NCBI RefSeq assembly: GCF_024267655.1
Contig: NZ_CP100595.1
Span: 1,116,001-1,180,000, forward strand
From: Arcobacter roscoffensis
GTDB taxonomy: Bacteria > Campylobacterota > Campylobacteria > Campylobacterales > Arcobacteraceae
Length of the DNA stretch: 64,000 nt
Direction of reading: 5' to 3'
Numbering within the stretch: the stretch's first letter is position 1; every line of letters starts with the position of its first letter. Both the position numbers and the translations under genes were made by a program. The notes under the pieces are model-generated. The model was given only the letters and a program-made list of their open reading frames with translations, was not told the DNA's origin and made no database searches. Of the stretch, positions 29,081-59,500 are shown in pieces.

Positions 29081-29110
29081 AAATAGTTAAATATCTTTAA
29101 AACTATTTTT
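29079..29110. terminator. Bidirectional terminator between convergent kinase genes
   Basis: AAAAATAGTT at 29079-29088 and AACTATTTTT at 29101-29110 form a 10-bp stem with a 12-base loop. It overlaps the ends of both convergent genes and has T-runs on both strands. Confidence 0.7.
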
Positions 29111-30736
29111 TAAAAGGTTCATTATCTTATTTTGTTTTTCTTTTGAAAGTATGTTTTCTTCAAGTTCTTGTAGAATTTTACAAATATCTATAAATCCCAA
29201 ATTCAAACAAGAGTTTTTGATATAGTTTGCTTTTGCAATAATATTTGATGAGTCATTTTCTTTTATAAAAGTATCAAGTTCATCTAAATCTTTATGTATT
29301 TCTTTTTTAAACTTTGATACTATCATTTCAGCTATATTTTCAGAAATACCAATATTTTGTGAAATCTTTTTTATATTAATATCTAACTTTAAGTGTTCAT
29401 TACTTTGTTTATTTGTATATTTGGCAATAAGCTTTTTTAGTTCGTTTGCATTTATAGGTTTGCTCAAGTAATCATTCATCCCAAGTTCTAAAAGTTTTTC
29501 TTTGTCTCCTTTTATTGCATTTGCTGTTAGTGCAATAATAGGAATATTTTTTAGTTTATTTATTCCTTGATAATTTTTTATCTTTTTAAATGAATCAATA
29601 CCATTTAAAATAGGCATATTAATATCCATTAAAATTAAATCATACTCTTCAGGGCTTTTTATATACTTATCATAGGCAATAGCGCCATTTTCTGCTATTT
29701 CAAGATTTATTTGAAGCTCATTTAAAATAGCCTTTAGTAGTTCTTGATTAGCATAATTATCCTCAGCTAATAATATATTTATTTTTGAAGATATATTCTC
29801 TTCTAGTCTATTTTGATATTCATCTTTACTTATTTCTTCTTTTGTGTCTTCAAAAACTTCACAAATTAGAGTAAACTTAAAAGTACTTCCTTTATTTTCT
29901 TTGCTTTGTATTTCTAAGTTTGAAGCAAAAAGCTTTAAAAGCTCAGTAGATATACTAAGTCCTAACCCTGTTCCAACAGTTTGTTTATTTGATATATCTT
30001 CTAATTGAATAAATGGTTTAGTTATAGCTTCAATTTTATTTGAAGCTATTCCTATGCCTGTATCTTTTATAATAAACTCTAATTTTGTCTTATTTTCAAA
30101 AGCCTCAATAAGATTTATTCTAAACTCTACCTTACCTTCTTCTTTTGTAAATTTAATTGCATTTGAAAGTAGATTTGTGATTATTTGCTTTAGTCTTAGG
30201 CTATCTGTGTTTATATATTTAGGAATATTCTCATCTATTTTAGAAAAGAAATTTAGATTCTTTTCTTTTATTTTATAGGAAAATAAATCTAAAACATCTG
30301 TATATATAGCATATATATTTGTTTTACTTTTTGATATATTAAAATTACCATTTTCAATTTTAGAAAAATCAAGAATGTCATTTATTATGGATAATAGTGA
30401 ATTAGCACTTGAATTTATAATAGATGAGTATTTAATACTTTTTTCATCTAAGCTTTGTGAATCATTGAGAATTTTTGAAAAACCTATTATTGCATTTAGA
30501 GGAGTTCTAATCTCATGACTCATATTTGCTAAAAAGTCAGACTTGGCTTGATCTGCTTTTCTAGCTTGAACTAGTGCTTTTTCAAGACTTGCTGTTCTTT
30601 CTTTTACTTGATTTTCTAGGTCCTGATTTATTTGCCATAATTCAAAACTTTTTTCTTCAAGAAGCCTTTCACTCTCTTTTCTAGCTTTTCTTTCCCTTTC
30701 AAATCTACTTTTCCAAGGGTTATTCTCTTCAATCAT
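29087..30736 (-). CDS. Soluble hybrid histidine kinase with receiver and degenerate HPt, partner of H-NOX
   Basis: Cytoplasmic protein of 549 residues without its own sensor domain. A coiled coil (about 10-60) leads to HisKA with His74 in MSHEIRTPLNAI, HATPase (NLLSNAIKF, GTGLGLSI), a receiver domain with Asp371 in LMDINMPILNG, and an HPt-like helical bundle (about 450-549). In that bundle the expected phospho-histidine is Asn504 (AKANYIKNSC), whereas the two neighbouring hybrid kinases have AKAHYIKNSC. The start ATG overlaps the H-NOX stop (TAATG), so the two are coupled, and the H-NOX protein very likely supplies the NO signal. The relay must end at another HPt protein. Confidence 0.9.
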   Translation of the reverse strand: MIEENNPWKSRFERERKARKESERLLEEKSFELWQINQDLENQVKERTASLEKALVQARKADQAKSDFLANMSHEIRTPLNAIIGFSKILNDSQSLDEKSIKYSSIINSSANSLLSIINDILDFSKIENGNFNISKSKTNIYAIYTDVLDLFSYKIKEKNLNFFSKIDENIPKYINTDSLRLKQIITNLLSNAIKFTKEEGKVEFRINLIEAFENKTKLEFIIKDTGIGIASNKIEAITKPFIQLEDISNKQTVGTGLGLSISTELLKLFASNLEIQSKENKGSTFKFTLICEVFEDTKEEISKDEYQNRLEENISSKINILLAEDNYANQELLKAILNELQINLEIAENGAIAYDKYIKSPEEYDLILMDINMPILNGIDSFKKIKNYQGINKLKNIPIIALTANAIKGDKEKLLELGMNDYLSKPINANELKKLIAKYTNKQSNEHLKLDINIKKISQNIGISENIAEMIVSKFKKEIHKDLDELDTFIKENDSSNIIAKANYIKNSCLNLGFIDICKILQELEENILSKEKQNKIMNLLKNSFKDI

Positions 30737-31275
30737 TAGATTTTCTTTATAGTAAACTTAACTTCATAAGGTTCATCACAAACAGTTTTATATTTTACAT
30801 CAAGTGGTTCATTAAAGTACTCTCCACATGCTTCAATAAGACCATGAGCAAAGGCTTCTAATCTTTTGCTTGATTTATATACAAGTTCTAAACTTTCTTC
30901 ATCTTTTTGAACTGTTTCAAACTTTGGTAAATCAGCATCAGGATAAAGTTTTTTAACTTCTACGTGAACATACTCTTCTACACTATCAATAAAATCAAGA
31001 GCATTTCCCACACTTTTAATATCTTTTCCATATAGTTTTACAAGTGTAGAAAATAGATGTTTTCCAAAAATAAATAAAAGATCATTTGGGGCTTTCCCTG
31101 TTATTTCAGATAAAGCTGTTAATAGTTTCACCATATGATCAAAAGGATAATTACCACCTTGAGAAAAGGCTCCATGGTTTTCAAGCATAGCTTTTTCTAT
31201 CATTTTATCTGCAACATCAAAACCTAAAGCTTCTTCTACAAACTCTATCATTTCTGTAAAAATTACACCTCTCAT
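30736..31275 (-). CDS. H-NOX haem-based gas sensor (HNOB domain)
   Basis: Haem protein of 179 residues matching bacterial stand-alone H-NOX. The haem-ligand histidine is His104 in EYVHVEV, close to position 102 of well-studied members, and the distorting proline lies in DADLPKF. The haem-propionate motif Y-x-S-x-R appears as Y133-K-S135-S-K137, so the arginine is replaced by lysine, with Arg138 next to it. Facultative bacteria use such proteins to bind NO and control an adjacent kinase, often feeding c-di-GMP enzymes. Here the gene is coupled to the kinase at 29087 and downstream of an HD-GYP gene. AAGGAG precedes the ATG. Confidence 0.93.
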   Translation of the reverse strand: MRGVIFTEMIEFVEEALGFDVADKMIEKAMLENHGAFSQGGNYPFDHMVKLLTALSEITGKAPNDLLFIFGKHLFSTLVKLYGKDIKSVGNALDFIDSVEEYVHVEVKKLYPDADLPKFETVQKDEESLELVYKSSKRLEAFAHGLIEACGEYFNEPLDVKYKTVCDEPYEVKFTIKKI

Positions 31276-31284
31276 TTTTTCTCC

Positions 31285-34200
31285 TTATTTTAGTGAATTT
31301 ATTTTATTTTTTAAACTATTGTAAATTTTTTGAATCTCTAAAGAGCTTAACTCTTCACAACTTTCAAGAGATTGAAGATTAAGACAAATGTCATCTAAAG
31401 CAAGATTCAAACAAGAGTTTTTAATATAATGAGCCTTAGCAGAGATATTTTCATGGTCATTGTCTTGAATAAAAGAATGAAGTTCATCTAAATCCTTGTG
31501 AATTTCCTTTTTGAACTTTTCAATAATCATAATAGCAATGTTCTTAGAAACCCCAAGCTTAGAAATAACCTTGTCAATGTCAATCTCAAAAGTCTCAACA
31601 ACTTCCTTCTTGCTTAAATTACTTTCCTCTAAAGATGGCTTAGAGTGCATAGCTTCTTTTTTGTTTAAAAATTTGTCAAATAAAAACTTTAACTCATTAG
31701 TATTAACAGGCTTAGATAAATACTCGTTCATACCAATGTTTAAAAATCTTTCCCTGTCACCTTTAATTGCATTAGCAGTTAAAGCAATAATAGGAATAGT
31801 ACCTAAAGCATGTTGCTTTTCATGTTCTCTAATGGCATTAAATGCCTCAATACCATCCATAATAGGCATGTTAATATCCATTAAAACTAAATCATAAGCC
31901 TCAGGTTTAGAAATAAACTCATCTAAAGTTTCTTTCCCATTAGGTTTGATATTATAATTAAGACCGAAACTTTCTAAAATATAAGAGATTAACTCCTGAT
32001 TAGCAAGATTGTCCTCAGCAACTAAAATGTTTCCATTAAAAGACTCCAATAAAGAGTCTTCATTAATTGAAGGCATAGAATCAACAGCTTTTTTCTGAAG
32101 TTCCTGTAAAGCATCATTAACCTTAGAAGCATAAAAAGGTAAAGATAATGCTTGCTCGTTGTCTTCTAAAATAAGCTTAGATAAGTCTTCTTCATATTCA
32201 AATAAAATTAAGATAGGATTGTCTTTGTGTAATTGTCTAAAATCATCTAAATTATGATCTTTATTGTAATTGAAGATGTAAATATCTTTAGATGAAGATT
32301 TGTTAATGTTAATAGTACCAAAGATAGATAAATACCTTTTAATGTAATGATATAAATCATTGTCAGTATTCTCAACCTTGAAATTTAAATGATGTAAATA
32401 CTCTTTGTTAGTATGAATAGAATCGTCACAAACATCAAATGTTAAATCAAAGAAAAAAGAAGTACCTAAACCAATAGAACTTTTAATACCAATTTTAGAA
32501 CCTAAAGCCTCAATAATATGAGAACAAATACTTAGACCTAAACCAGTACCCTCAAACTCCCTAGTAGACTTGTGGTCAACTTGAATAAAAGGTCTGAAAA
32601 CATTGTCAAGCTTGTCATCAGGAATACCAATACCAGTATCTTTAATTTCAAAGTTAATAGTAGCTTTGCCATCAGAGATGCTTTGTAAAGAGATATTAAG
32701 TTCAACCTTGCCATGCTGAGGAGTAAACTTAATAGCATTAGATAAAAGGTTAGATAGAACTTGTCTTACTCTAACACCATCAGTTAAGATACACATAGGG
32801 ATTCTATGGTCAATGTTAAAAATAAGTTTAAGATTTTTTTCAATAGCATTTTTAGAGAAAAGCTCAATAACATGCTCAGAGATAAAATATAAATCAGTAT
32901 TGTCAATAGTAATGTCAAAATTACCACTTTCAATTTTAGAAATGTCAAGGATGTCATTAATAATAGATAATAAAGAGTTAGCACTAGATTGAATAATTCT
33001 AGCTTGCTTAACTCCATGAATATCTAAAGATTTAGATTTGCAAAGGATGTCAGAGAAACCAATAATAGCATTTAAAGGGGTTCTAATTTCATGACTCATA
33101 TTTGCTAGGAATGTTGACTTCGCTTCATCGGCTTTTTTTGTATTTTCTAAAGCCTTTTGAAGACTTTGTGTTCTTTGTTCTATTTGCTTTTCTAAAGATT
33201 GATTAATTTGAACTAATTGTTTAGTTTTATTATCAACTTTTTCTTCTAAGTGTATATTTAACTCTTTTTGCTCAGTTAATAATATTTTTATTTTATGTGC
33301 CATTTCATTAAATGACTTTTCTAGATTACCTATTTCATCATTTGATTTTACTTCTATTTTATAGTCAAAATCATTGTTTGCGAATTTTTTAGTACCAATA
33401 AGAAGTTTTTCAATTTTAGAAGATATATAATTAGACATCCAAATAGCAACTGCTATTATAAAAATAATCATAATAAAAGTAAGAACTGTAAGTTCATTTA
33501 TTAAAGATTTAATAAATGTTTCTACCTCAAAAGTATTATCATCTACTATTTCTTTCATTTGTTCTGTTTGATGTCTTAATATTTTATTTATATTTCTTTT
33601 TGTGTCATTTGCCGCTGCATGAAACTCTTCTACATTTGCTCCAATTGTTACAAATCCAAAACCTCTTTTTGAATTTGCATATTGACCTGTATAATATGGA
33701 ATGGTAGCAGCAGTTGTTAGTTTCCATACCTTACTCCAATAGATAATAAATGAACCATAACCTCCATCTTCAGTTACTTGCATCCATCCTTTACATTGAG
33801 GAGCAAAGTTTAAATATCTACAATCAAGTCCAATATTTCCATTATCTTTTAACTGTTTTATATTTGGTTTTTTCTTTAAACTTTGATTTTCAAAAGTAGG
33901 GTATGAAGATAGAAATTCATTTATTTCTATATTTGAGTTATAATATTTTTTTGCAGTATCACTACTTAGCCAAGGCATAGCAGGTTTACCTGTATTCTTA
34001 TCATATCCTACAATAAAATAGTCTCTTGGGTGAGAGATGTTTTTCCCTTTATGATCCCACATAAAAGCATAGTTCCCATTGCTTGCATCAGAGATATTTT
34101 GAATAGGGTTGTTACTAGTAGGATTTATTGTATCTGTAAATTGCATAATATGTTCATGATCCAAAGCAAGTGAGATATATCCTCTTTTTTTGCCATCTTT

Positions 34201-35070
34201 ATAAATTGGAGTTACAAATCTTATAATACCTTCAAACTTTTTACCTACAGGATTTTCTTTTCCTGCATAAGCATAATTTTCAGGCTTAAAAGAAATATTT
34301 GCTTTTTGTGCTTTTTGTTTACTAAAGTTTCCTATTACTTTTGTGTGTAGTTGTTCTCCAATTACTTCTGATACATATATCTCACCTTTTTTCAGGTTTT
34401 GAATTTTTTCGAAATAGCTCTCAGAGTTTATATAAGTGTTTTGTTTTTCTGAAATATTTAATAAATTAGGATTTATTTGTGAAACCTTATATAGTTCATT
34501 TCCTTTTAAATCAAAATAGTTTATTTCTTTATAAAGTGGAATAGATTTCTTACTAAATTTAATAGGGTTTGTATAATTAAACTCTTTTTCATTATCTTTT
34601 ATACTTGCCTCAAGTAGTTCATATTTTTCTTTTGAGGGTTGTTTTGTACTTTTCCAAGTATTTATCTTATCATCATAAATATAATCCTCATGAAGAATAA
34701 TTTCTTTAGTCTTATTGTTATAAAAACTTTCTAAAGTATTTTTATTAAGTTCTAAATTTGATAATAATAGTATATCTTTATCTCTTTCATACAAAAAAGC
34801 TGCTACTTTTTGAGCAATTTCAAAAGATAGCCTTTCAATGGCTAATTGAGACTTCTTATCTAAATTTTTAATACTATCTTCAATTGATTCATTGGCAGTA
34901 TTCATTATAATCTCTTTATTTTGATTAAATAAAAACCTTGTACTATTTTGAAGATACTCTTCTAGTTTAATAGCACCTGTGTATGCAATATAAGTAATTA
35001 TAAGTAAAGGAATCACTTTTATTAAAATAAATAGAAGTATTAGTTTTACTTTAATTGAGAAGTTTTTCAT
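31285..35070 (-). CDS. Cache-domain hybrid histidine kinase with receiver and HPt
   Basis: Inner-membrane hybrid kinase of 1,261 residues. A helix (about 8-28), a very long periplasmic Cache-type sensor (about 40-520; YAYAGKENPVGKKFEG, VTPIYKDGKKRGYISLALD, a CRYLNFAPQCKGW cysteine pair), a second helix (about 525-548), HAMP and a coiled coil precede the output. The output has HisKA His660 (MSHEIRTPLNAI), HATPase, a degenerate receiver-like region, a true receiver (Asp1065 in LMDINMPIMDG) and an HPt domain (His1214 in AKAHYIKNSC). The output half is encoded by a 1,756-bp block identical to that of the next gene upstream. It starts one base after that gene's stop. Confidence 0.93.
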   Translation of the reverse strand: MKNFSIKVKLILLFILIKVIPLLIITYIAYTGAIKLEEYLQNSTRFLFNQNKEIIMNTANESIEDSIKNLDKKSQLAIERLSFEIAQKVAAFLYERDKDILLLSNLELNKNTLESFYNNKTKEIILHEDYIYDDKINTWKSTKQPSKEKYELLEASIKDNEKEFNYTNPIKFSKKSIPLYKEINYFDLKGNELYKVSQINPNLLNISEKQNTYINSESYFEKIQNLKKGEIYVSEVIGEQLHTKVIGNFSKQKAQKANISFKPENYAYAGKENPVGKKFEGIIRFVTPIYKDGKKRGYISLALDHEHIMQFTDTINPTSNNPIQNISDASNGNYAFMWDHKGKNISHPRDYFIVGYDKNTGKPAMPWLSSDTAKKYYNSNIEINEFLSSYPTFENQSLKKKPNIKQLKDNGNIGLDCRYLNFAPQCKGWMQVTEDGGYGSFIIYWSKVWKLTTAATIPYYTGQYANSKRGFGFVTIGANVEEFHAAANDTKRNINKILRHQTEQMKEIVDDNTFEVETFIKSLINELTVLTFIMIIFIIAVAIWMSNYISSKIEKLLIGTKKFANNDFDYKIEVKSNDEIGNLEKSFNEMAHKIKILLTEQKELNIHLEEKVDNKTKQLVQINQSLEKQIEQRTQSLQKALENTKKADEAKSTFLANMSHEIRTPLNAIIGFSDILCKSKSLDIHGVKQARIIQSSANSLLSIINDILDISKIESGNFDITIDNTDLYFISEHVIELFSKNAIEKNLKLIFNIDHRIPMCILTDGVRVRQVLSNLLSNAIKFTPQHGKVELNISLQSISDGKATINFEIKDTGIGIPDDKLDNVFRPFIQVDHKSTREFEGTGLGLSICSHIIEALGSKIGIKSSIGLGTSFFFDLTFDVCDDSIHTNKEYLHHLNFKVENTDNDLYHYIKRYLSIFGTININKSSSKDIYIFNYNKDHNLDDFRQLHKDNPILILFEYEEDLSKLILEDNEQALSLPFYASKVNDALQELQKKAVDSMPSINEDSLLESFNGNILVAEDNLANQELISYILESFGLNYNIKPNGKETLDEFISKPEAYDLVLMDINMPIMDGIEAFNAIREHEKQHALGTIPIIALTANAIKGDRERFLNIGMNEYLSKPVNTNELKFLFDKFLNKKEAMHSKPSLEESNLSKKEVVETFEIDIDKVISKLGVSKNIAIMIIEKFKKEIHKDLDELHSFIQDNDHENISAKAHYIKNSCLNLALDDICLNLQSLESCEELSSLEIQKIYNSLKNKINSLK
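31362..33117 (-). repeat. 1,756-bp duplicated block, copy A (kinase output domains)
   Basis: This block matches 35152-36907 at a constant offset of 3,790 bp with no difference that I could find by eye. It covers the coding sequence from the HisKA box to the HPt domain. The sequences diverge abruptly at both ends (last HPt residues on one side; linker just before MSHEIR on the other, first mismatch at 33118). Inside it AAG, GAC and similar codons are more frequent than in neighbouring kinase genes. Confidence 0.92.
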
Positions 35071-35071
35071 T

Positions 35072-38000
35072 TTAGGCCTTTATGCTACTAAGTTGTTTTC
35101 TTATATAGTTAAAACAGTCATTAATTTCATTCACAGATAAATCCATAGAATTTTCAAGAGATTGAAGATTAAGACAAATGTCATCTAAAGCAAGATTCAA
35201 ACAAGAGTTTTTAATATAATGAGCCTTAGCAGAGATATTTTCATGGTCATTGTCTTGAATAAAAGAATGAAGTTCATCTAAATCCTTGTGAATTTCCTTT
35301 TTGAACTTTTCAATAATCATAATAGCAATGTTCTTAGAAACCCCAAGCTTAGAAATAACCTTGTCAATGTCAATCTCAAAAGTCTCAACAACTTCCTTCT
35401 TGCTTAAATTACTTTCCTCTAAAGATGGCTTAGAGTGCATAGCTTCTTTTTTGTTTAAAAATTTGTCAAATAAAAACTTTAACTCATTAGTATTAACAGG
35501 CTTAGATAAATACTCGTTCATACCAATGTTTAAAAATCTTTCCCTGTCACCTTTAATTGCATTAGCAGTTAAAGCAATAATAGGAATAGTACCTAAAGCA
35601 TGTTGCTTTTCATGTTCTCTAATGGCATTAAATGCCTCAATACCATCCATAATAGGCATGTTAATATCCATTAAAACTAAATCATAAGCCTCAGGTTTAG
35701 AAATAAACTCATCTAAAGTTTCTTTCCCATTAGGTTTGATATTATAATTAAGACCGAAACTTTCTAAAATATAAGAGATTAACTCCTGATTAGCAAGATT
35801 GTCCTCAGCAACTAAAATGTTTCCATTAAAAGACTCCAATAAAGAGTCTTCATTAATTGAAGGCATAGAATCAACAGCTTTTTTCTGAAGTTCCTGTAAA
35901 GCATCATTAACCTTAGAAGCATAAAAAGGTAAAGATAATGCTTGCTCGTTGTCTTCTAAAATAAGCTTAGATAAGTCTTCTTCATATTCAAATAAAATTA
36001 AGATAGGATTGTCTTTGTGTAATTGTCTAAAATCATCTAAATTATGATCTTTATTGTAATTGAAGATGTAAATATCTTTAGATGAAGATTTGTTAATGTT
36101 AATAGTACCAAAGATAGATAAATACCTTTTAATGTAATGATATAAATCATTGTCAGTATTCTCAACCTTGAAATTTAAATGATGTAAATACTCTTTGTTA
36201 GTATGAATAGAATCGTCACAAACATCAAATGTTAAATCAAAGAAAAAAGAAGTACCTAAACCAATAGAACTTTTAATACCAATTTTAGAACCTAAAGCCT
36301 CAATAATATGAGAACAAATACTTAGACCTAAACCAGTACCCTCAAACTCCCTAGTAGACTTGTGGTCAACTTGAATAAAAGGTCTGAAAACATTGTCAAG
36401 CTTGTCATCAGGAATACCAATACCAGTATCTTTAATTTCAAAGTTAATAGTAGCTTTGCCATCAGAGATGCTTTGTAAAGAGATATTAAGTTCAACCTTG
36501 CCATGCTGAGGAGTAAACTTAATAGCATTAGATAAAAGGTTAGATAGAACTTGTCTTACTCTAACACCATCAGTTAAGATACACATAGGGATTCTATGGT
36601 CAATGTTAAAAATAAGTTTAAGATTTTTTTCAATAGCATTTTTAGAGAAAAGCTCAATAACATGCTCAGAGATAAAATATAAATCAGTATTGTCAATAGT
36701 AATGTCAAAATTACCACTTTCAATTTTAGAAATGTCAAGGATGTCATTAATAATAGATAATAAAGAGTTAGCACTAGATTGAATAATTCTAGCTTGCTTA
36801 ACTCCATGAATATCTAAAGATTTAGATTTGCAAAGGATGTCAGAGAAACCAATAATAGCATTTAAAGGGGTTCTAATTTCATGACTCATATTTGCTAGGA
36901 ATGTTGATTTCGCTTCATCTGCTTTTTGTGCTTTGATTTGAGAGATTATTACATCAGTAATATCAAGTCTAATAGCCAAGAACTCTTCTATTTCATTTTC
37001 GTAATTTAAGATAGGAACAATAGTAGTATTTACATAGTAATCTTTTCCTTCTTTATCTTTATTCTTTATCTGTCCTTTCCATATTTGTTTACTTAAAATT
37101 GTATTCCATACTTCTTCAAATAGACTAGTTGGCATATCAGGATGTCTTACTATATTGTGATTCTCACCTATTAATTCTTCTTGCGTATATTTAGATATTT
37201 TAATAAAGGCATCATTTACATATGTAATTTTTCCATTCTTGTCTGTCTTTGATACTATGGCACTTAAGTCAACGGCTCTTTTATATTGGTTTAAAAGCTT
37301 ATTAGCATTTCTTAAATCTTGAGTTCTATTTTCTACTTCTGATTCTAGTGTTTCTTTTGCTTCTTTATGTTGCTTTTCATTTTTTTCTGAAATGATATTA
37401 TAGTGAATCGCTAAAATTAGAATAAAGAATATTAATATTGAAACCATTATCAAAGTTTGTTGAGTTGTTAAAATAAACTCATTTCTATATGGCATACTAA
37501 CTTCAATAACTCCTCTTACATCACCTAATTTCCAATTGTTTTTAGGAGTATCTGCTCTTGTATTGTGACAATTTACACAAGACATATCAGTAAATACATC
37601 AGCAATAGCAACTTTGTATTTTTTTGTACTATTAGAAGAAATTTCTTGTGTGTAAATCTCAGAAGGGTTATTCACTAAATATGAAAGAGTCATCTTTTCA
37701 TGTTCTTTTAGAACTCTGTTTTCTCTATTTGGAAAAGGATAATTACTATACATTTTAATTTCAATTTCATTCTTAGGTAATAGCAAACTCAAATCATGTA
37801 AAAGTGTTGCAGGTAGAGGAATAGTTTTTGTATTTGTTTCGTGATCAAAATTAATATTTATATTCTCATGACCTTTAATTTTACTTATTATTTTTTCCGT
37901 ATAGTAAGCTCTAGTTTTTTTTAAATTATCAATAAGTTCTAAAGCTTTTTCTTCCATTTGAGTTTTATTGTTTGCATTTGTATACTTTGGAATAATAAAA

Positions 38001-38092
38001 ACCATAGATACAGTAAGTATTATAGTAATTACAAAAATTGGACCAGTAAAGGGATTAATAAAAGGACTTAAAATTTTTTTGCTTAAATTCAT
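35072..38092 (-). CDS. DUF3365-type haem/PAS hybrid histidine kinase with receiver and HPt
   Basis: Inner-membrane hybrid kinase of 1,006 residues. A helix (about 15-35) is followed by a periplasmic DUF3365-like domain (about 40-205) with a c-type haem motif CVNCH in DMSCVNCHNTRAD, which suggests redox or gas sensing. A second helix (about 213-233) and a PAS domain (about 270-385; IVSKTDKNGKITYVNDAFIK) lead to HisKA His404, HATPase, a degenerate receiver-like region, a receiver (Asp809) and HPt (His958). From HisKA to HPt it is encoded by the duplicated block shared with the gene at 31285. It starts directly after the REC-HD-GYP gene with no gap. Confidence 0.92.
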   Translation of the reverse strand: MNLSKKILSPFINPFTGPIFVITIILTVSMVFIIPKYTNANNKTQMEEKALELIDNLKKTRAYYTEKIISKIKGHENININFDHETNTKTIPLPATLLHDLSLLLPKNEIEIKMYSNYPFPNRENRVLKEHEKMTLSYLVNNPSEIYTQEISSNSTKKYKVAIADVFTDMSCVNCHNTRADTPKNNWKLGDVRGVIEVSMPYRNEFILTTQQTLIMVSILIFFILILAIHYNIISEKNEKQHKEAKETLESEVENRTQDLRNANKLLNQYKRAVDLSAIVSKTDKNGKITYVNDAFIKISKYTQEELIGENHNIVRHPDMPTSLFEEVWNTILSKQIWKGQIKNKDKEGKDYYVNTTIVPILNYENEIEEFLAIRLDITDVIISQIKAQKADEAKSTFLANMSHEIRTPLNAIIGFSDILCKSKSLDIHGVKQARIIQSSANSLLSIINDILDISKIESGNFDITIDNTDLYFISEHVIELFSKNAIEKNLKLIFNIDHRIPMCILTDGVRVRQVLSNLLSNAIKFTPQHGKVELNISLQSISDGKATINFEIKDTGIGIPDDKLDNVFRPFIQVDHKSTREFEGTGLGLSICSHIIEALGSKIGIKSSIGLGTSFFFDLTFDVCDDSIHTNKEYLHHLNFKVENTDNDLYHYIKRYLSIFGTININKSSSKDIYIFNYNKDHNLDDFRQLHKDNPILILFEYEEDLSKLILEDNEQALSLPFYASKVNDALQELQKKAVDSMPSINEDSLLESFNGNILVAEDNLANQELISYILESFGLNYNIKPNGKETLDEFISKPEAYDLVLMDINMPIMDGIEAFNAIREHEKQHALGTIPIIALTANAIKGDRERFLNIGMNEYLSKPVNTNELKFLFDKFLNKKEAMHSKPSLEESNLSKKEVVETFEIDIDKVISKLGVSKNIAIMIIEKFKKEIHKDLDELHSFIQDNDHENISAKAHYIKNSCLNLALDDICLNLQSLENSMDLSVNEINDCFNYIRKQLSSIKA
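35152..36907 (-). repeat. 1,756-bp duplicated block, copy B (kinase output domains)
   Basis: Second copy of the block at 31362-33117, in direct orientation. The two copies are separated by 2,034 bp that hold the entire sensor half of the downstream kinase. Recombination between them would delete 3,790 bp and leave one chimeric, still in-frame kinase gene. Confidence 0.92.
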
Positions 38093-39136
38093 TTAGTTTT
38101 CTTCTTGAAATGAGTTATAGATATTTTTTACTTCGTCAATATTCTCAACAAAAAGTTCAACAACTTTTGGATCAAAATGTTTACCTTTTTCTTCTATTAA
38201 AAGATTCAAAGCATCCTCAAAAGTCCAGGCTTTTTTATATGGTCTATGAGATGTTAAAGCATCAAATACATCAACAACAGCGACTATTCTTCCATAAATA
38301 TGAATATCTTCACCTTTTAAACCCTTTGGGTAACCAGAGCCATCATACTTTTCATGATGATTAATAGCAATAGTAGCACCTGCTTGAAGATATTCACTTT
38401 TAGAGTCTTTTAGTATTTCATAACCAATGTGAGCATGTGTTTTCATAACATCAAACTCTTCTTTATCTAATCTTCCAGGTTTTAATAAAATATCATCTTC
38501 AATTCCTACTTTTCCTAAATCATGGAAAGGTGAAGCATAGTAAATAATATCCTGCTCTTTTGGGCTTAATCCATACTCTCTTGCTAGCATTTTAGAATAG
38601 TGTGCAACTCTTGATACATGTGAAGCTGTTTCTGGGTCTTTGTATTCTGCTGTTTTACCTAAAATACTTAGTGTTTCATGTTCTCTTTCAATAAGCTCTT
38701 TTGTTGCAATTACTACTTCTTCTTCTAAAAGTTTAGCTTTATCTTCAATCAAAAGAGTATTTTTATATAAATTTAGTAAGTTTAAAACTCTTGCTTTAAA
38801 TAAAGTTGCATTTACTGGTTTATTTAAAAAGTCATTAGCCCCTGCTTGAAAAGCATCATTATGTATATCTTGGTCATTTGCTGCTGTAATCATAATTATA
38901 GGCACTTTTGTATTATTCTTTCTAAACTCTTTAATAAAATCAAGACCATTTAGTTGAGGCATCATATAATCTATTAGTATCATGTCAACAGGATTATTTA
39001 ATACATGCAAAAGTGCATCTAATGGCTCAGAGAAGCTTTTTATATTAAGCCCCATATCATTACAAAAAGCTTCGATTAAAAATAAATTGTTTTCATTATC
39101 ATCAATAGAAATAATCTTCATATCTTCTAGTTTCAA
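38093..39136 (-). CDS. Receiver-HD-GYP c-di-GMP phosphodiesterase
   Basis: Cytoplasmic response regulator of 347 residues. The receiver (about 6-125) has phospho-acceptor Asp in LIDYMMPQLNG and the conserved Lys in DFLNKPVN. After a coiled linker, the HD-GYP domain (about 155-335) shows SHVSRVAHYS, FHDLGKVGI, the TH and NHHEKYDGSGYP motifs and VVDVFDALTS, all intact, so it should hydrolyse c-di-GMP. It sits in the middle of the kinase operon and is the only obvious output protein there, so the kinases likely control it by phosphorelay. Its start is preceded by a 61-bp gap after the PAS kinase gene. Confidence 0.95.
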   Translation of the reverse strand: MKLEDMKIISIDDNENNLFLIEAFCNDMGLNIKSFSEPLDALLHVLNNPVDMILIDYMMPQLNGLDFIKEFRKNNTKVPIIMITAANDQDIHNDAFQAGANDFLNKPVNATLFKARVLNLLNLYKNTLLIEDKAKLLEEEVVIATKELIEREHETLSILGKTAEYKDPETASHVSRVAHYSKMLAREYGLSPKEQDIIYYASPFHDLGKVGIEDDILLKPGRLDKEEFDVMKTHAHIGYEILKDSKSEYLQAGATIAINHHEKYDGSGYPKGLKGEDIHIYGRIVAVVDVFDALTSHRPYKKAWTFEDALNLLIEEKGKHFDPKVVELFVENIDEVKNIYNSFQEEN

Positions 39137-48110: not shown

Positions 48111-49940
48111 CTAGGTTAAAACTCTTTTATTTCCGTCTTTTTTAATATTTGAGAAGTTGTCTAAGTAATCAAGGTAAGTAATAAGATATTTTCTACTTAA
48201 AGGGTGTCTTTCTTTGAAATTTGAAATTTCAATAAAGCCATCTTCTTGGATTATACTTTTCATTTGTCTTACTATACTATCTAGACTTTCACTATGAATA
48301 AAAAGATTATGTTGAAGTCTAATTACAAGTTTTTTTGAAGTTAAAAACTTAAGTATATTATCTCCAAGTTTTCTATCTAAGTCTAAATCATCATAGATAT
48401 TATAAGGAGCAGTTGGTGTGATATGCTCTTTTTTAAGTCTTTCTAAAACTATATTTTTTAGTTTGTCTTCATAGTCTTCTTCTATATCTTTACTTTTATA
48501 AAGTTTGTTGTTTTTAACTAAAAATCCTTCATCAACTAAGTGTGTTAAAGCATCTTCGATGAAGCTTTCACTTGCCCATTTGATTCTAAGATTTATAGAA
48601 GCTGGTGAAAGTAGGGCGTATTTGTTTTTTGTATAAATCTCTTTGATAAAGTCAATAATAACTTGTTTTGTTTCAATAGGATAAATCGTAAGTTCTTCTT
48701 TATCTATATATACATTTTCTAAATTATTAGCAAACTCGATTGCCTCTTCATGGCTTAAAGCAAATCTTTGTGAAGATGAAATAAGACCTAAACCTTTTTT
48801 ATGGGCTTCAAGAAGTTTTTTATAAGCATAAGTAAAGTTCTCTTCTTTTAGAGCTTCTAAAAGTTCTCTTTTTTGGTTTTTTTTCATAGGATCTGCGATA
48901 GGATTTAGAACCTTTCCACCTGCAATAGTGTCATTTCCTAATCTTAGGATAATCTTTTCACCAAAAATAGTATATAGTTTTTCATCAGCTTTTATAGTAG
49001 CAAAGCCTTCTTTTAAACTAGTCGTAGAATCAAAAAGTAAAACCCTAACTTCAAGCTTTTTAGAACCTATGAAAAGTGTATATTTTTGATTGTGTTTTAA
49101 CTCTTTTTGTTTTAAAGTATTAAAAGAAATATCAATCATATCAAAGCCTCTTAAAAAGCCTTTTTTACTAAGTAAATCACCTTTTTGAATAGAATTTGCA
49201 TTTATACCTTGTAAGTTTAAAGCAGCTCTGTTTGAGATGTTTGCTTCAATGGCATTTTCATTATGAACTTGGATGTTTTTTATTTTGATTTGTTTTTCAC
49301 TTTGACATAAAAAAACTTTTTCATTTAATTCACAAGGTTTCCCTAAAACTGTACCAGTTACAACAGTACCTATACCTTTTGGAGAGAACACTCTATCTAC
49401 ATAATACCTAAAGAAGTTTTCTTCTTTTTTTGCTTTGTTTTTTATACTAAAAAGTTTATCTTTTAAAGTCTCTATTGAATCAGGCTCAAAAACAGATACA
49501 GCTTGAATAAAATTTATATCAAAATCATACTCTGAAAAAAACTCTTCTATTCTTTTTTCTTGTTTCTCTAACTCATCTTGTGATACTAAGTCTTTTTTCG
49601 TTATCACAATAACTACATCTTTAATACCCAAAAGATTGATAATCTCAATATGCTCAACAGTTTGTGGCATGATACCTTCTTGGGCACTAATAGCAAACAT
49701 AACGCAGTTAAATCCAAAAGCACCTGCAATCATATTTTTGATAAGTTTTTCATGTCCTGGCACATCAATAAATGCTATGTTTTGTTGACCTTTAGAAAGA
49801 TTTGAAAAAGATAAATCAATAGTGATACCTCTTTGTTGTTCCTCTTTTGTAGAGTCACCTTCATAGCCGTTTAAAGCTTTGATTAAAGCAGTTTTCCCAT
49901 GGTCAATATGTCCTGCTGTTCCTATAATAATATTTGACAT
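48111..49940 (-). CDS. selB: Selenocysteine-specific elongation factor SelB
   Basis: GTPase of 609 residues that delivers Sec-tRNA to UGA codons marked by a SECIS hairpin. The N-terminal EF-Tu-like part has G1 GTAGHIDHGKT (about 7-17), DVPGHEK (G3) and TKKDL (G4). Beta-barrel domains follow, and then the SelB-specific winged-helix repeats that bind SECIS RNA (about 370-609). The start overlaps the selA stop by one base (TAATG), so selAB is one unit, with tRNA-Sec just upstream on the other strand. No obvious selenoprotein gene lies in this window. Confidence 0.96.
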   Translation of the reverse strand: MSNIIIGTAGHIDHGKTALIKALNGYEGDSTKEEQQRGITIDLSFSNLSKGQQNIAFIDVPGHEKLIKNMIAGAFGFNCVMFAISAQEGIMPQTVEHIEIINLLGIKDVVIVITKKDLVSQDELEKQEKRIEEFFSEYDFDINFIQAVSVFEPDSIETLKDKLFSIKNKAKKEENFFRYYVDRVFSPKGIGTVVTGTVLGKPCELNEKVFLCQSEKQIKIKNIQVHNENAIEANISNRAALNLQGINANSIQKGDLLSKKGFLRGFDMIDISFNTLKQKELKHNQKYTLFIGSKKLEVRVLLFDSTTSLKEGFATIKADEKLYTIFGEKIILRLGNDTIAGGKVLNPIADPMKKNQKRELLEALKEENFTYAYKKLLEAHKKGLGLISSSQRFALSHEEAIEFANNLENVYIDKEELTIYPIETKQVIIDFIKEIYTKNKYALLSPASINLRIKWASESFIEDALTHLVDEGFLVKNNKLYKSKDIEEDYEDKLKNIVLERLKKEHITPTAPYNIYDDLDLDRKLGDNILKFLTSKKLVIRLQHNLFIHSESLDSIVRQMKSIIQEDGFIEISNFKERHPLSRKYLITYLDYLDNFSNIKKDGNKRVLT

Positions 49941-51286
49941 TAGTTAAAAACTCCTCTTATAATCTCTTGTATTTCTTTTATTTCATGTTCTTGAATACTT
50001 CTAAAATCAATTAGAACTTTTTCATTTTCTATTCTTATTATCAAGTTTTGTTTTCTAAGAAGTTTTTCTATTTTGTTTGCTTTATAGTCTTTGTATTCTA
50101 AAGTAAGGGCAATTGTTGGTATCTTTTTGTTTGGAGTAGTTCCTCCACCTATTAAAGATTGTGTTTTTATAACTTCACACTTACAAATATCTTCTATACT
50201 TTGTTTTAGAGTATTTGCTCTTTGCTCTAAAGTCTTAACATCTTCATGTAACATCTTTAAAGTAGGAATGTCTTGTGTTTGACCTTTTAGATACGAAGTA
50301 AGATTGTCTTCAAGTATTGCTAAAGTGATTTTATCAACTCTTAGCATTCTTAGAAGTTGGTTTTTTTTGATTTTTGCTATTAGCTCTTTTTTACCAACTA
50401 TGATACCAGCTTGAACTGAACCTAAAAGTTTATCTCCTGAGAAACTAAGTAAGCTTGGTTTATGTTTCATATATTTTATAAGTGATGGTTCACTTAAGTC
50501 AAGATTGTAAGGTAAATCTATCATATGACCACTCCCCATGTCATAGTAGTCTATCACATCATGTTCTTGGGCTACTTTTATGATCTCTTCATAAGAAACT
50601 TCTGATGTAAAACCTTCAATAGAGTAGTTTGACTTATGAACTTTCATAAGCATAGATGTATCTTCATCAATAGCATTTTCATAGTCTCTAAGGTGAGTTT
50701 TGTTTGTAGTACCTATCTCTTTTAGTTTTGCACCACTTTGGCTCATAACCTCAGGAACTCTAAAACTTCCACCAATTTCCACAAGCTCACCACGACTTAC
50801 AACTACCTCTTTGTTTTTAGCAAAAGTATTTAGTATCAAAAATACAGCACTAGCATTGTTGTTTACAACAACTGCATCTTCACAACCTGTAAGAGCTTGA
50901 AGAGTAGATACTATATGCTCATATCTTTCACCTCTTTTTCCCTCTTGAAGAGAATACTCTAAGTTGTTGTATGAAGTAGCAACTTTTTTTGCTCTATCAA
51001 AACTATCTGGATTTATCAAAGACCTACCTAAGTTTGTATGTACGATAATACCTGTAGCATTTATAACTTTTTGAAGTGAAGGTTTTGTGATGTCTTGGTA
51101 CTTTTTAAGTACATCATTTATAATATCATCTTGTGTGAAATCTTGGATTTTTTCATCTAAGATATCTTGTCTATACTGATTTATAGTATCTTTACTGATA
51201 CTTGTAATCAACTGTTTTGAAAGCTCTTCAAAAGCTTTGTTGTTGACAAACTTGTCAACCTTTGGAAGGTTCTTAAGTAAACCCAT
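49940..51286 (-). CDS. selA: L-seryl-tRNA(Sec) selenium transferase SelA
   Basis: PLP-dependent enzyme of 448 residues that converts Ser-tRNA(Sec) to Sec-tRNA(Sec) with selenophosphate. The N-terminal tRNA-binding part starts MGLLKNLPKVDKF; the catalytic part has VVNNNASAVFLILNT, YYDMGSGH and the PLP lysine Lys286 in SGDKLLGSVQAG. The ATG at 51286 has AAGGG upstream. The frame stays open further up to 51382, but that stretch is antisense to the tRNA-Sec gene and adds no family sequence. It is coupled to selB downstream. Confidence 0.96.
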   Translation of the reverse strand: MGLLKNLPKVDKFVNNKAFEELSKQLITSISKDTINQYRQDILDEKIQDFTQDDIINDVLKKYQDITKPSLQKVINATGIIVHTNLGRSLINPDSFDRAKKVATSYNNLEYSLQEGKRGERYEHIVSTLQALTGCEDAVVVNNNASAVFLILNTFAKNKEVVVSRGELVEIGGSFRVPEVMSQSGAKLKEIGTTNKTHLRDYENAIDEDTSMLMKVHKSNYSIEGFTSEVSYEEIIKVAQEHDVIDYYDMGSGHMIDLPYNLDLSEPSLIKYMKHKPSLLSFSGDKLLGSVQAGIIVGKKELIAKIKKNQLLRMLRVDKITLAILEDNLTSYLKGQTQDIPTLKMLHEDVKTLEQRANTLKQSIEDICKCEVIKTQSLIGGGTTPNKKIPTIALTLEYKDYKANKIEKLLRKQNLIIRIENEKVLIDFRSIQEHEIKEIQEIIRGVFN

Positions 51287-51343
51287 ATTTACCCTTTCAG
51301 ATAGTTTTAAAATAAAATGCTGTAAGATTTCAATTCTTTTAAG

Positions 51344-51443
51344 CGGGGGGTATGTGATCCTGGTGGACACCGCAGGCTTCAACCCTGATCGGAGGTTCGT
51401 GTGTACGCGCCTCGGTAGGTTCGATTCCTACACCTTCTCGCCA
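51344..51443 (+). tRNA. selC: tRNA-Sec (anticodon UCA)
   Basis: About 100 nt folding as a selenocysteine tRNA: anticodon UCA at 51379-51381 in loop CTTCAAC, a long D stem (GTG-A-TCC with GGA-CAC), a long variable arm containing GAGG/CCTC, T-arm GTAGGTTCGATTCCTAC, an 8-nt 3' acceptor strand ACCTTCTC, then G and encoded CCA. The 5' strand CGGGGGGT pairs over 7 of 8 positions with several G-U pairs and leaves C-C at the first pair, which is unusual. It is divergent from selA. Confidence 0.88.
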
Positions 51444-53502: not shown

Positions 53503-56500
53503 ATGAAAAGACCAAGTGGATTAAATAATTTACATAGAAGATACCAAAGACATCAAGAGAAACTACAGGCTAAAAAACAAAAAAAACTATTCAAAGAAGG
53601 AAATAGTTTATTTGAAATAGAACCTTTAGAGCAAAGGACACTATTATCTGCTGATCCTTTACTTGGTGCAGGTTCTGCTGCAGTTATTTTAAATGATAAT
53701 GAAAATAAATACCAAGAAACACAAACAATAATCCTTGATGATACTTTAAATGAAAAAGAAACAGTTGTAAAAGATTTAACAACTGAAGATAACTCTTTCT
53801 TACTTGATGCAAAACTTATAGACTTTAATAATATATCTGAATTACTAATTGATGATGAAATCCTAGGGGGAAGTGGTACTATCGAGGCTGATGTTGTAAA
53901 CTATAACATTGTAGCTCCTGGTTACTCTCCAGGTATCCAAAATATTACTGGTGATTATACACAAGATAGTAGCGGTACCCTTCAAATAGAAATTGGTGGA
54001 CTTGATAACTCTGATACAAATAATCCTGAATATGACCAATTAAATGCTTCTGGAAATATTGAGCTTGATGGTACTTTAGAAATTACTATGTGGGATGATT
54101 TTGCTGCAAATGTAGGGGATGAATTTACTATTATTACAGGTTCAAATATTACAGGTGCATTTACAGATATTACAGGTCTTTACGGATTTAATTCTGATTA
54201 CTACTTTGATATTGAACAAACAAGTACAGAAGTAAAACTTATCACGAAAGAGTTGGTATCTGGAGATGATTTCAACTTTGTATTAGATACTGTTCCTCAA
54301 TATGATGAAATAGGAAAAGTTTTAAATGCTGATTATTTAGTATCAGCACAAAATAGTATTGAACTAAATGACATAGATATTCAAGTTTCAGGGTTTGCTG
54401 CAAGTGGTAATTTTGCTATTGAAAAAAACACTAATACTATTGAAATTATTGGTTCGGGTGTATCAGTTACTATGAATGCCTCTGATATTTTTGTTGGGGT
54501 TGAAAATGCAGATTTAGGAATCATTGTTGATAGTAATAAAAAAGTTGCTTTAGAAGCAAGTGGTGATATTGTATTAGATGGTTTTGATTTTGATTTACCT
54601 ACTGCACAAAGTGTATCTGTAAAATTAAATCAAACAGGTACAGAATATACGGATGAGACACTAACTATTGGAACTTCATCTTATACTTTTGATAATATCG
54701 CATCTTCTACAACTCTAAAAGAGATAGGTATTACAGGTTTAGATGTAACATTTAGTGATAATATAGTTTTAAAAGGTGACTTTGCTTTTGTAAGTGATAC
54801 TACAAATAATGTATTTAATGCAATATCATCTAATGCAACAGCTTATATGAGTGCAGGTGATTTTTATGTTGGTGTAAGTAGTGCAAATTTAGGTTTAATG
54901 GTAACTGATGAAGGTGTAGTTTTACAAGCAAATGGTGCTTTAGATGTATCTTTAGGTAGTGATATCGTTTTAAGTGCTGAAAATGTTTCATTTGATTACA
55001 ATGAAACGGCTACAGATTATTTAAATGAAACTATTAGTGTTGGCGCATCAACTTTTACTTTCAATGTTGAGTCTTTACACAAGGCTACAAATATTACTAA
55101 TGGTTCATTAAATGTATTTGACTTTTTAACAGCTTCTGGAAATTTCTCTTTTACTCAATCAAACGATACTGTAACTTTATCTGATAGTACAAATACTTCA
55201 GTAGAATTATTAACTTTAGGTATGACAAATGTTACAGCATTTGCAGGACTAAATGCAAACTCAAGTGATAAAGTAGGTTTTGAACTTTCTAATTTAGACC
55301 TTGCTTTAGTATTTGCTGTTGATACAAAAAACAATGCAAGAAAGTGGACTGCATTACAAGCTAGTACAAATAGTATTTCATTTGTAGGAAGTGATAAACT
55401 AACAATCGAAGCTACATCTACACTTTTAGAAATAAATAGAAGTGCTATTGATGGTACATTAATTGATTTTAAATTAAATCCATTAACAATACAAGTAGGT
55501 ACAGACTCTTTATCTTTAACAATGGATGCAAGTGAAGGTGAACTTTTAAGAGTTTCAGGAGATATGATTATAAACATAAGTGATTTCTTCATCTTTGAAG
55601 GAAGTGTTTATTTTAGTAAATCAACTACAAGTGTAACTTTAACAGACGATAGTGTTGTAAGTGTTGATAATTTGACTTTAGCCATGAATGGTGTAGATGC
55701 ATTTGCTGGTTTAGATGCTCAAAGCTCAAATAAAGTTGGTTTAGACTTAGAAGGTGTTTCTTTTGCCTACTCAATTATGGCAAGCAAGAGTGTCGCAAGT
55801 GATAAATGGACATCGTTTAAAGCTAAAGCAACTGGAGCTTCTTTTGTGGGAATTGATGATGTAACAATTGATGCAAGAGATATTTTAGTAAATATAAATA
55901 CTTCTTCAAATGCTGAGTTTGTTGATTATTCAAAAACATCATATAGTGTAGATTTCCAAAATGGAAACAGTATAGAGTTTGATATGCAAGCTGAAATTAT
56001 AGAATTAAGTGCTGATATAACATTTAATTTATATGATTTTTTAGTTATTGACGGTGGCTTTGCTATTGAAAAATCTACACTAGATGATGTAGTACTAAGT
56101 GATGAATCATTAGTTGATGTTGATTTACTTACTGTTGGTGCAAATAATTTAACTGCATTTGCTGGATTAAATTATGGAAAAACTGATGAGGTTGGGTTAT
56201 CTTTAAGTGGTGTTTCTTTTGCTCTTAGTGTAATGAGTGAAAAAACAGCTAATAAAAGAAAATGGTTAGCCCTTCAAGCAACTGCACAAAACGCAGGTTT
56301 AGTTGGAGTAGATGATTTAGTATTAAAAGGAAGTGATTTAAATATATTGATAAATCAAGCTTCTTCTGATGGTACTTTAGTTGATTTTAGTTCTATGAGT
56401 TTTGCAGTTGATACAAGTTCTTCAACTTCAATTACCTTAGATATGGACGGAAGTGTAGGAGAGTACTTAAAAGTAAGTGGACACTTCGATGTAAATGTAT

Positions 56501-59500
56501 ATAATTTCTTTAGTACAAGCGGTAACTTTGCATTAGAGAAGACAACAGATACAGTAAGCCTAGATAGTGGAGAGAATGTAAATGTAGATTTACTAACAAT
56601 AGGAGCAGATTCAGTAGATGCGTTTGTTGGAGTAAATGGAGGAAGCAGTGATGCAATAGGGATCCAAGCCACAAATACAAACTTTGCATTAGCAATATTA
56701 AATGATAAAACAGTAGGAAGTAATTCTCAATGGATATCATTACAAGCAACAGTAGGGACAGCTGGATTTGTAGGGATAGATGGATTAAGCCTAAGCGCAA
56801 GTAACCTAGATGTACAAATAAATAGAAGTAGTGAAACAGGGTCAGATGCAAGATATGTAGATTATGCAATAAATAATCTAGAAGTAGCAACAGGAACAGA
56901 CACAAGCTTTAACTTAACAATGGATGGAAGCCAAAAAGAGTTAACACAAATTAGTGGAGCTATGGATATAAACATCTTTAACTTCTTTAGTGTAAATGGA
57001 GAGTTTGCATTAAAGAAATATACAGACTATGATATAAAAACAGTAGATAAAGATGATAGTACAAATACAACAACAATAGAAGAAGTAGATGTATTAACAC
57101 TAGGAGCATTAGGAGCAAACGCATTCATAGGAATGAATGGAGGAAGTGATGAAGCCCTAGGACTAAGCGCAGCAGGTGTAAACTTTGCCTTAGCAATAAT
57201 CAATAATAAATCAAATAAAAATGAAAGTTTCACATCCCTACAAGCAACAACAAATAATGTAAGCTTCGTAGGAATAGAAGACTTAACAGTAAGCGCAACA
57301 GACTTAGCATTAAATATCAACCAAGCGTCAAATACAAATAAAGTAGTAGACTATAAAACAATGGAAGATAATGGTGATGCCTTTGATGTACTAGTAGGAA
57401 CAAACCAAACAGTAACATTAGATATGGATGGAAGTAGAGGAGAATTACTAGAAGCATCAGGACACCTAGAATTAAACCTATTTAACTTTATAGGATTAGA
57501 AGGAAACTTCGGATTTGAGAAATCAGTAAGAGAAGTAACCCTAAACTCAGGTGAAAGTATAAAAGTAGATTACCTAGGATTAGGTGGAGAGAATGTAAGT
57601 GCATTCGCAGGATTAAATTATAAACAAGCAGATGCAGTAGGATTAAGCTTAGGAGATATGGACTTCGGATTAGCTTTAATGAGTGATAAGAAAGATAATA
57701 CAAGAAAGTTCACATCATTACAAGCGACAGCATCAAGTGCAGGACTAATCGGAGTAGATGGATTAGTAATAGAAGCTAGTGACTTAGAAGTATATGTAAA
57801 TCAAGGTATCAAAGTAGATGAGATACCAGATGAGACAATAAAAGAGAATACAATTTTAAAAGTAAGCATCACAGAAGATATAAGAGGTGATGTAGTAATA
57901 ACAAAAGATGGCTCAAATGAAATACTAAATATAGATGGAAGTGAAACAAATGAGACATTATTAGCAGAATTAAAAGCAGCATTTGTAAGTTTAGCAGGAA
58001 CAGACGCCGTAAATGTAGAAGTAAGTGGCGATAAAGTAAATGGATATAAAGTAGAGTTTGTAGGAGCACTAGAAGGTGTAAATGTAGAAGGGTTTACAGT
58101 TTCAACAACAGCACCAAGTGCAAGTGTAAGTATATCGACGATAGAAGAGGCGAAAGCGGGAGTAGATGAGATAACAAGATTAACAATCGATACTCCTAGA
58201 GTTGTTACTGCGCCAATAGACACAGAAATATCTACAATAACAAATACTTCAAGTGGAACAAATGAAATTCAAACAATAACTTTCCATGACCCATATGATG
58301 CAGGGACATATACATTATCAAATGGTGTAAGTTCAGTTAGTGTTAAATTTGTAGGAAGTCAAACTTTAACAAATCAAACAAATATACAAAAAGCATTAGT
58401 AACACTATATGGTGGAACAACAGCAGACTATAAAGTTAAGTTTGATTCAAGTTCAAGTGGAAGTCATAAGTATTATATTACCTTCCAAGGAACAAAAGCA
58501 AATAGTAATATTACAGAATTAAATGCAACACCAGATTCTAATATGAAAGCAATTTCTGTTTCTACATATAAAGAAGGAACAGGAGCTCTTAGTGAAACAC
58601 AAGAGTTTAAAGTTTCAACAACAGCAACTGGAAACTATACTTTATCTTTAGATTATAATGGAAATACATATACTACAAGTGCATTAGACTTTAATGCAAC
58701 AGCAAATGAAATTCAAACAGCATTAACAAATGCGATTTCTTCAATAAGTGGAGCAACTGTTTCTGTAGTAGATTCAGTATCAGGTAAAGAAGATACATAT
58801 GAAGTTACATTTGCAGGTACATTATCAGGAGTAGATTTAGCACTTTTATCAATAAAAACAAATCCAGATGCTACAAGCGCGAGTGGGACATTTGATATAT
58901 GGTTTGAAGGAGATAGTAAGCAAACAGTAGCATATTCAACAGATATGAGTGTGTTAGCAAGTAATATTCAAACAGCATTAGAAGCAACAAGTACGATGGG
59001 TGCAGGAAATGTACAAGTAGAGTATGATGCAGCAAATTCAAATGAGACACAAATAAATTTCCTAATAAAAGCGATAGGAACATTAGAGAAGACAGATGTA
59101 AGTGATAAGTTCTATACAGATGATAGTAATCTAAACCTAGCAAGTACAAAATTGTACTATGAAGTAGAAGGGTATAGTGATACAGCAGAAGAGCAAAAGT
59201 TAGTATTTAACTCAGAGACAGAATATAGTTATACATTAACATATAATGGACAAACAACAAGTGCGATATTATCAAGTGCAACAATAACAGAGATACAAGC
59301 TATTATAGATACAGAGTTAACAAGTGATATAAAAGTAAGTAACTTTAATGGAACAGAATTAGTATTAAGCTTTGAAGGAAGTTTAGCAGGGACAGATGTA
59401 GAGACAATAGTAGCAAATGTAGAAGCTAAGACAAGTGAAGCAAGTATAGAAGTAAGTCAAGCAGGGTCAACAACAGTAATTGCAGGGAAAGAGGCAAGTG

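Follow-up and report, generated by a model that had tools for sequence, protein, structure and literature searches.

In the window, the whole 64,000-base stretch of the Arcobacter roscoffensis genome analysed here, two hybrid histidine kinases, A and B, carry unrelated sensor halves joined to a perfectly identical output block. In some lineages, this A-B output module very probably undergoes concerted evolution. The best explanation as a whole, held with the same high confidence, is that A and B form an old pair feeding one phosphorelay, whose block has recently been copied from one gene onto the other by gene conversion. Recurrent conversion of the module across several species is well supported.

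Both kinase genes lie on the minus strand, 1 base apart, with A ahead of B in the direction of transcription, an arrangement that corrects the initial annotation. The order of transcription runs from the REC-HD-GYP regulator through A, B and H-NOX to a third hybrid kinase. The features of the locus are as follows, with the basis of each in brackets.

38093..39136, minus strand: REC-HD-GYP response regulator, HD and GYP motifs present (Pfam, neighbourhood in relatives)
35072..38092, minus strand: kinase A, 1006 aa, with a Tll0287-like periplasmic sensor carrying a CxxCH motif, PAS, HisKA, HATPase, REC and HPt (translation, Pfam)
36908..38092, minus strand: sensor half of A, absent from B (pairwise comparison, Pfam, family search)
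35152..36907, minus strand: identical output block, A copy (pairwise comparison)
35072..35151, minus strand: A-specific HPt tail, 25 aa plus stop (pairwise and tail comparison)
31285..35070, minus strand: kinase B, 1261 aa, with a large membrane-anchored sensor, HAMP, HisKA, HATPase, REC and HPt (translation, Pfam)
33118..35070, minus strand: sensor half of B, with orthologues family-wide (family search, synteny, tree)
31362..33117, minus strand: identical output block, B copy (pairwise comparison)
31285..31361, minus strand: B-specific HPt tail, 24 aa plus stop (pairwise and tail comparison)
30736..31275, minus strand: H-NOX (haem-NO-binding) protein (Pfam)
29087..30736, minus strand: third hybrid kinase, soluble, with a related but diverged HisKA-HATPase-REC-HPt, 65-73% nt identical in parts (genome search, Pfam)

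In A and B, Pfam identifies HisKA, HATPase_c, REC and HPt in this order, the layout of a tripartite hybrid kinase, with the HPt match scoring 22-24 bits, slightly under the gathering score of 24.6 bits. The block contains the NMSHE, MDIN and AHYIKNS motifs and all three phosphorelay residues: the DHp histidine, the REC aspartate and the HPt histidine. In sensor A, a CVNCH motif of the CxxCH type suggests covalently bound haem c. In sensor B, Pfam detects HAMP and a weakly recognised sensor region. A second B-type sensor, 64% identical in amino acids, sits on an orthodox histidine kinase lacking REC and HPt elsewhere in the same genome (G000:C1:627358-629232; L163:4359-6923), and proteins like this kinase occur in many relatives, presenting one sensor family with different outputs. 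Among NCBIfam models, none of the TorS, BarA and ArcB equivalogs reaches its curated cut-off (best 358 bits, against 676 for TorS), and neither do those of the NosP-NahK-NosR system (NosR regulator 154 against 400 bits, near-NosP kinase 143-160 against 400). The H-NOX gene matches PF07700 (HNOB; E 4.9e-37) and has a candidate proximal histidine in YVHVEVKKLYP. The haem-contact motif of H-NOX is YxSxR; the protein at 30736-31275 reads YKSSK, a possible Arg-to-Lys change.

Elsewhere in the window, an open frame of at least 3,499 aa on the plus strand (53503-63999) runs off the end. It contains three near-identical repeats (99% over 300-nt reference copies, spaced 3,156 and 3,159 bases apart), and no confident Pfam domain is found in it; the adhesin-like label is a guess. 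A cluster of selB, selA and, on the opposite strand, tRNA-Sec occupies 48111-51439.

Direct pairwise comparison within the window matches 31362-33117 to 35152-36907 at 1756 of 1756 positions, bearing out the initial annotation, which had reported 1,756 bp of identity with silent sites included. None of the 166 comparable four-fold sites differs between the two blocks. A perfect match over 1,756 bases lies beyond chance. At the offset of 3790, no other run of 14 or more matches accompanies the block, and identity in its flanks falls to the random level of about 25-40% per 100 bases. The borders had been placed just before the HisKA box and inside HPt; the first residue of the block is 652 in B and 396 in A, two positions within the Pfam HisKA match (650-716 in B, 394-460 in A), and the block ends 24-25 residues short of the C-terminus, within the HPt region. 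The sensor halves, described earlier, along with the HPt ends, as unrelated or diverged, are unrelated, reaching only about 25% aa identity over a forced alignment. The genome is a single contig of 3,154,193 bases, and a whole-genome search locates the block at these two places only, the next best matches being pieces of 65-73% identity in the neighbouring third kinase.

The pair itself is old. Family-wide searches covered 104 genomes, the family probably being Arcobacteraceae, and species were compared by one genome each, the window's own being numbered G000 and standing alone for its genus. Orthologous kinases occur across the family, with sensor A 44-60% and sensor B 62-71% identical. Tandem A-B pairs are found in G091, G067, G068, G002, G006, G001 and G017, and in G021 and G022 (L061, L062) an extra hybrid kinase between A and B forms a three-member array. 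Trees built from sensor A and from sensor B agree on the supported groups, (G055,(G061,G063)), (G067,G068), (G002,G006) and (G001,(G021,G022)) with G017. These concordant trees, together with synteny, indicate that the A-B pair predates the species concerned, and the identity in G000 therefore does not stem from a recent origin of one gene.

Within genomes, the A and B blocks are 100.0% identical in G000 and G055, four-fold sites included, whereas the nine other complete pairs are only 55-70% identical in nucleotides; orthologous blocks in different species share 65-81%. In G000 and G055 the paralogues are thus closer to each other than to their orthologues, even at silent sites, while sensor trees and synteny make them older than the species compared, and the pattern extends to several lineages: G000 and G055 by complete sequence, the sole genomes with full block identity at that level, and the drafts G061 and G063 by forks at contig ends. 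In the finished genome of G055, A and B lie at loci separated by 1.31 Mb and agree exactly over 1,791 bases, the identity running from about 20 bases upstream of the HisKA box to the gene end. G062 has no orthologous sensor A, and its B kinase (L158:2537-5488), which lacks the H-box stretch and HPt and is possibly decaying, was left out of the pairs. The initial annotation had envisaged relatives whose pair lacks the block. The relatives do possess it, only in homologous, diverged form, and this difference instead dates the homogenisation in G000.

In the draft genomes, the fork pattern marks the same module. In G061, the sensor-A and sensor-B contigs terminate in an identical exact 127 bases, and both contigs exiting the block open with an identical exact 127 bases. 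In G063, an exact 141 bases are common to both exit contigs and to the contig holding A plus the block, at its end; the last 122 bases of the sensor-B contig are identical to the start of the block. The constant overlaps of 127 and 141 would be the edges of a collapsed repeat left by fixed-word-length assemblers. Past the 3' fork, the tails of G061 and G063 group by type and not by genome, with 18 of 31 residues shared between A tails and 23 of 31 between B tails across species, against 13 of 31 between A and B within G061. Divergence among G055, G061 and G063 is about 16-20% nt in the sensors, and about 19% between G055 and G063 in the block; divergence of this order places homogenisation after each split, separately in each lineage. 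G057 is not counted: its A and B-locus contigs also stop inside the block, but a contig carrying the B sensor could not be located. In the sister pairs G067/G068, G002/G006 and G021/G022, no conversion is visible since the split, A-A and B-B being 84-98% identical in amino acids and A differing from B. The continuing conversion proposed at the outset thus applies to the clade of G055, G061 and G063 and does not hold generally. Homogenisation is lineage-specific, not universal.

In the proposed mechanism, A and B, each with its own sensor, would feed one phosphorelay, and in G000 a non-reciprocal homologous recombination, presumably RecA-dependent, would recently have overwritten one block with the other. 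The tract would extend from the edge of homology just ahead of the HisKA box to the last HPt helix, leaving sensors and tails untouched. Three or more further species would each have undergone the same event independently, with an unchanged 5' edge. This edge coincides with the end of homology, where a KADEAK-like coiled segment precedes the unrelated sensors. Non-reciprocal recombination fits best because both sensors and both tails survive and homology ends at the 5' edge; for G000, the mechanism and its timing are inferred from static sequence. Frequent conversion may preserve identity until a pair escapes and drifts, which would give the all-or-none pattern of 100% or at most 70%. A search for MutL that is positive in 11 of 14 control genomes detected none in the G000 genome, and its absence would lift one obstacle to the recombination of diverged copies. 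The G000 block groups with G091.A in the tree (support 96/95), while the AU test does not reject a placement with G091.B (p 0.22); A is the favoured candidate for the donor copy.

The sensor swapping by deletion suggested in the initial annotation does not follow from this layout. Reciprocal exchange between the direct repeats would always yield sensor A, block and B tail, deleting sensor B, and so would lead to sensor loss. A separate observation concerns G056 (L067:7839-10814), where an A-only kinase occupies the place that the A-B pair has in G067 and G068 and could be the predicted deletion product.

The total identity, silent sites included, and the tandem placement of the genes could also arise if the output half of one kinase had lately been copied onto another sensor, the very recent duplication offered as one option in the initial annotation. 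This origin is extremely improbable, and that option falls away: A and B occur with their own, orthologous sensors family-wide, their order mostly unchanged, the two sensor trees yield matching groups, sensor identities between species are only 62-71% for B and 44-60% for A, and the tails of G061 and G063 remain type-specific. The sensor-B tree and synteny likewise oppose the arrival of B in G000 as a non-orthologous newcomer. Equalisation of diverged or merely similar blocks during assembly or polishing is highly unlikely. Short-read polishing can make near-identical repeats equal, but it could not equalise copies that diverge by about 33%, and at most a few last differences would have been erased. 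Furthermore, G000 is a single contig with both junctions unique, the independent finished genome G055 has the identity at distant loci, and two drafts fork at the same module edges.

Conversion might proceed without functional meaning, driven by long homology and missing mismatch repair, a reading that contests the benefit and not the conversion itself, and that is given somewhat less than an even chance. The absence of MutL accords with it, and the divergence of most other pairs, which have escaped conversion, shows that function does not depend on identity. Against it, conversion recurs in four or more species, with the same edges of the module and distant loci included, while the output domains of the chemoreceptors (MCPs) of the same genome are not homogenised: among 25 in G000 no pair is identical, the best reaching 93%. 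General output-domain homogenisation is thus not seen in the chemoreceptor family of G000, the sole family compared. Repetition across species is recurrence, not proof of selection, and selection for sameness of the blocks, like a benefit from shared wiring, is hypothetical. The initial proposal that gene conversion keeps two sensors on one output is well supported, in several species and not in G000 alone.

The closest known counterparts share parts of this arrangement. In Campylobacter jejuni, of the same phylum, Tlp2, Tlp3 and Tlp4 have ligand-binding halves that differ, joined to one and the same signalling segment, a region of Tlp3 being identical to residues 513-659 of Tlp2 and 520-665 of Tlp4 (PMC3879368); these are chemoreceptors sharing about 147 aa, whereas the phosphorelay module common to A and B, which are hybrid kinases, measures 586 aa. 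Another paper treats recombination among the Tlps without the term gene conversion (PMC6433261). Long-lasting, recurrent concerted evolution in prokaryotes is described for 26 genes by Wang and Chen 2018 (PMC6053082), likewise with within-genome paralogues closer than orthologues and conversion as the driver. In the present case, unlike theirs, an internal module alone is converted, sensors and tails are spared and many lineages have escaped; a term search of their text finds no kinase or two-component gene named. In the Shewanella H-NOX/HnoK-HnoS network, several kinases with different inputs, one of them H-NOX-linked, converge on c-di-GMP regulators with HD-GYP and EAL, an HD-GYP protein being among the targets (PMC6335343). 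The kinases here differ in being hybrids with HPt, two of them with an identical output half, and the HD-GYP regulator here keeps its HD and GYP motifs, whereas the Shewanella one is degenerate. BarA, TorS and ArcB have the same HisKA-HATPase-REC-HPt layout and are the best NCBIfam resemblances, but A and B score far under the curated cut-offs and their sensors are unlike. A literature search of a limited collection, itself weak evidence, returned no direct report of histidine-kinase conversion or of a hybrid-kinase output module evolving in concert.

In most relatives compared, the REC-HD-GYP regulator is 69-76% identical and adjoins A or B, a conserved neighbourhood that makes it the probable common target of both kinases. 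The input of A (haem c/redox and PAS) and that of B (a putative periplasmic signal) would then reach the same HD-GYP c-di-GMP phosphodiesterase regulator. A and B likely act on it with identical output specificity, and the two signals probably stay wired into one pathway. The identical DHp and ATPase halves could further allow mixed A/B dimers, in which one enzyme would carry a sensor of either kind and compare the two signals, with conversion kept by selection for mixed pairing and partner specificity even at a distance of 1.3 Mb; this extension is speculative and unlikely.

The usual account of kinase paralogues is that they diverge once duplicated, thereby insulating their pathways. Some lineages do the reverse: a whole phosphorelay half is copied again and again, even across distant loci, and the sensors remain distinct. 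Short-read assemblies can be expected to break or collapse at modules of this kind, which serves as a warning. In related species the halves drift, offering a natural contrast between wired-together and drifted-apart pairs, and through this contrast cross-talk, mixed dimers and signal integration become open to direct testing.
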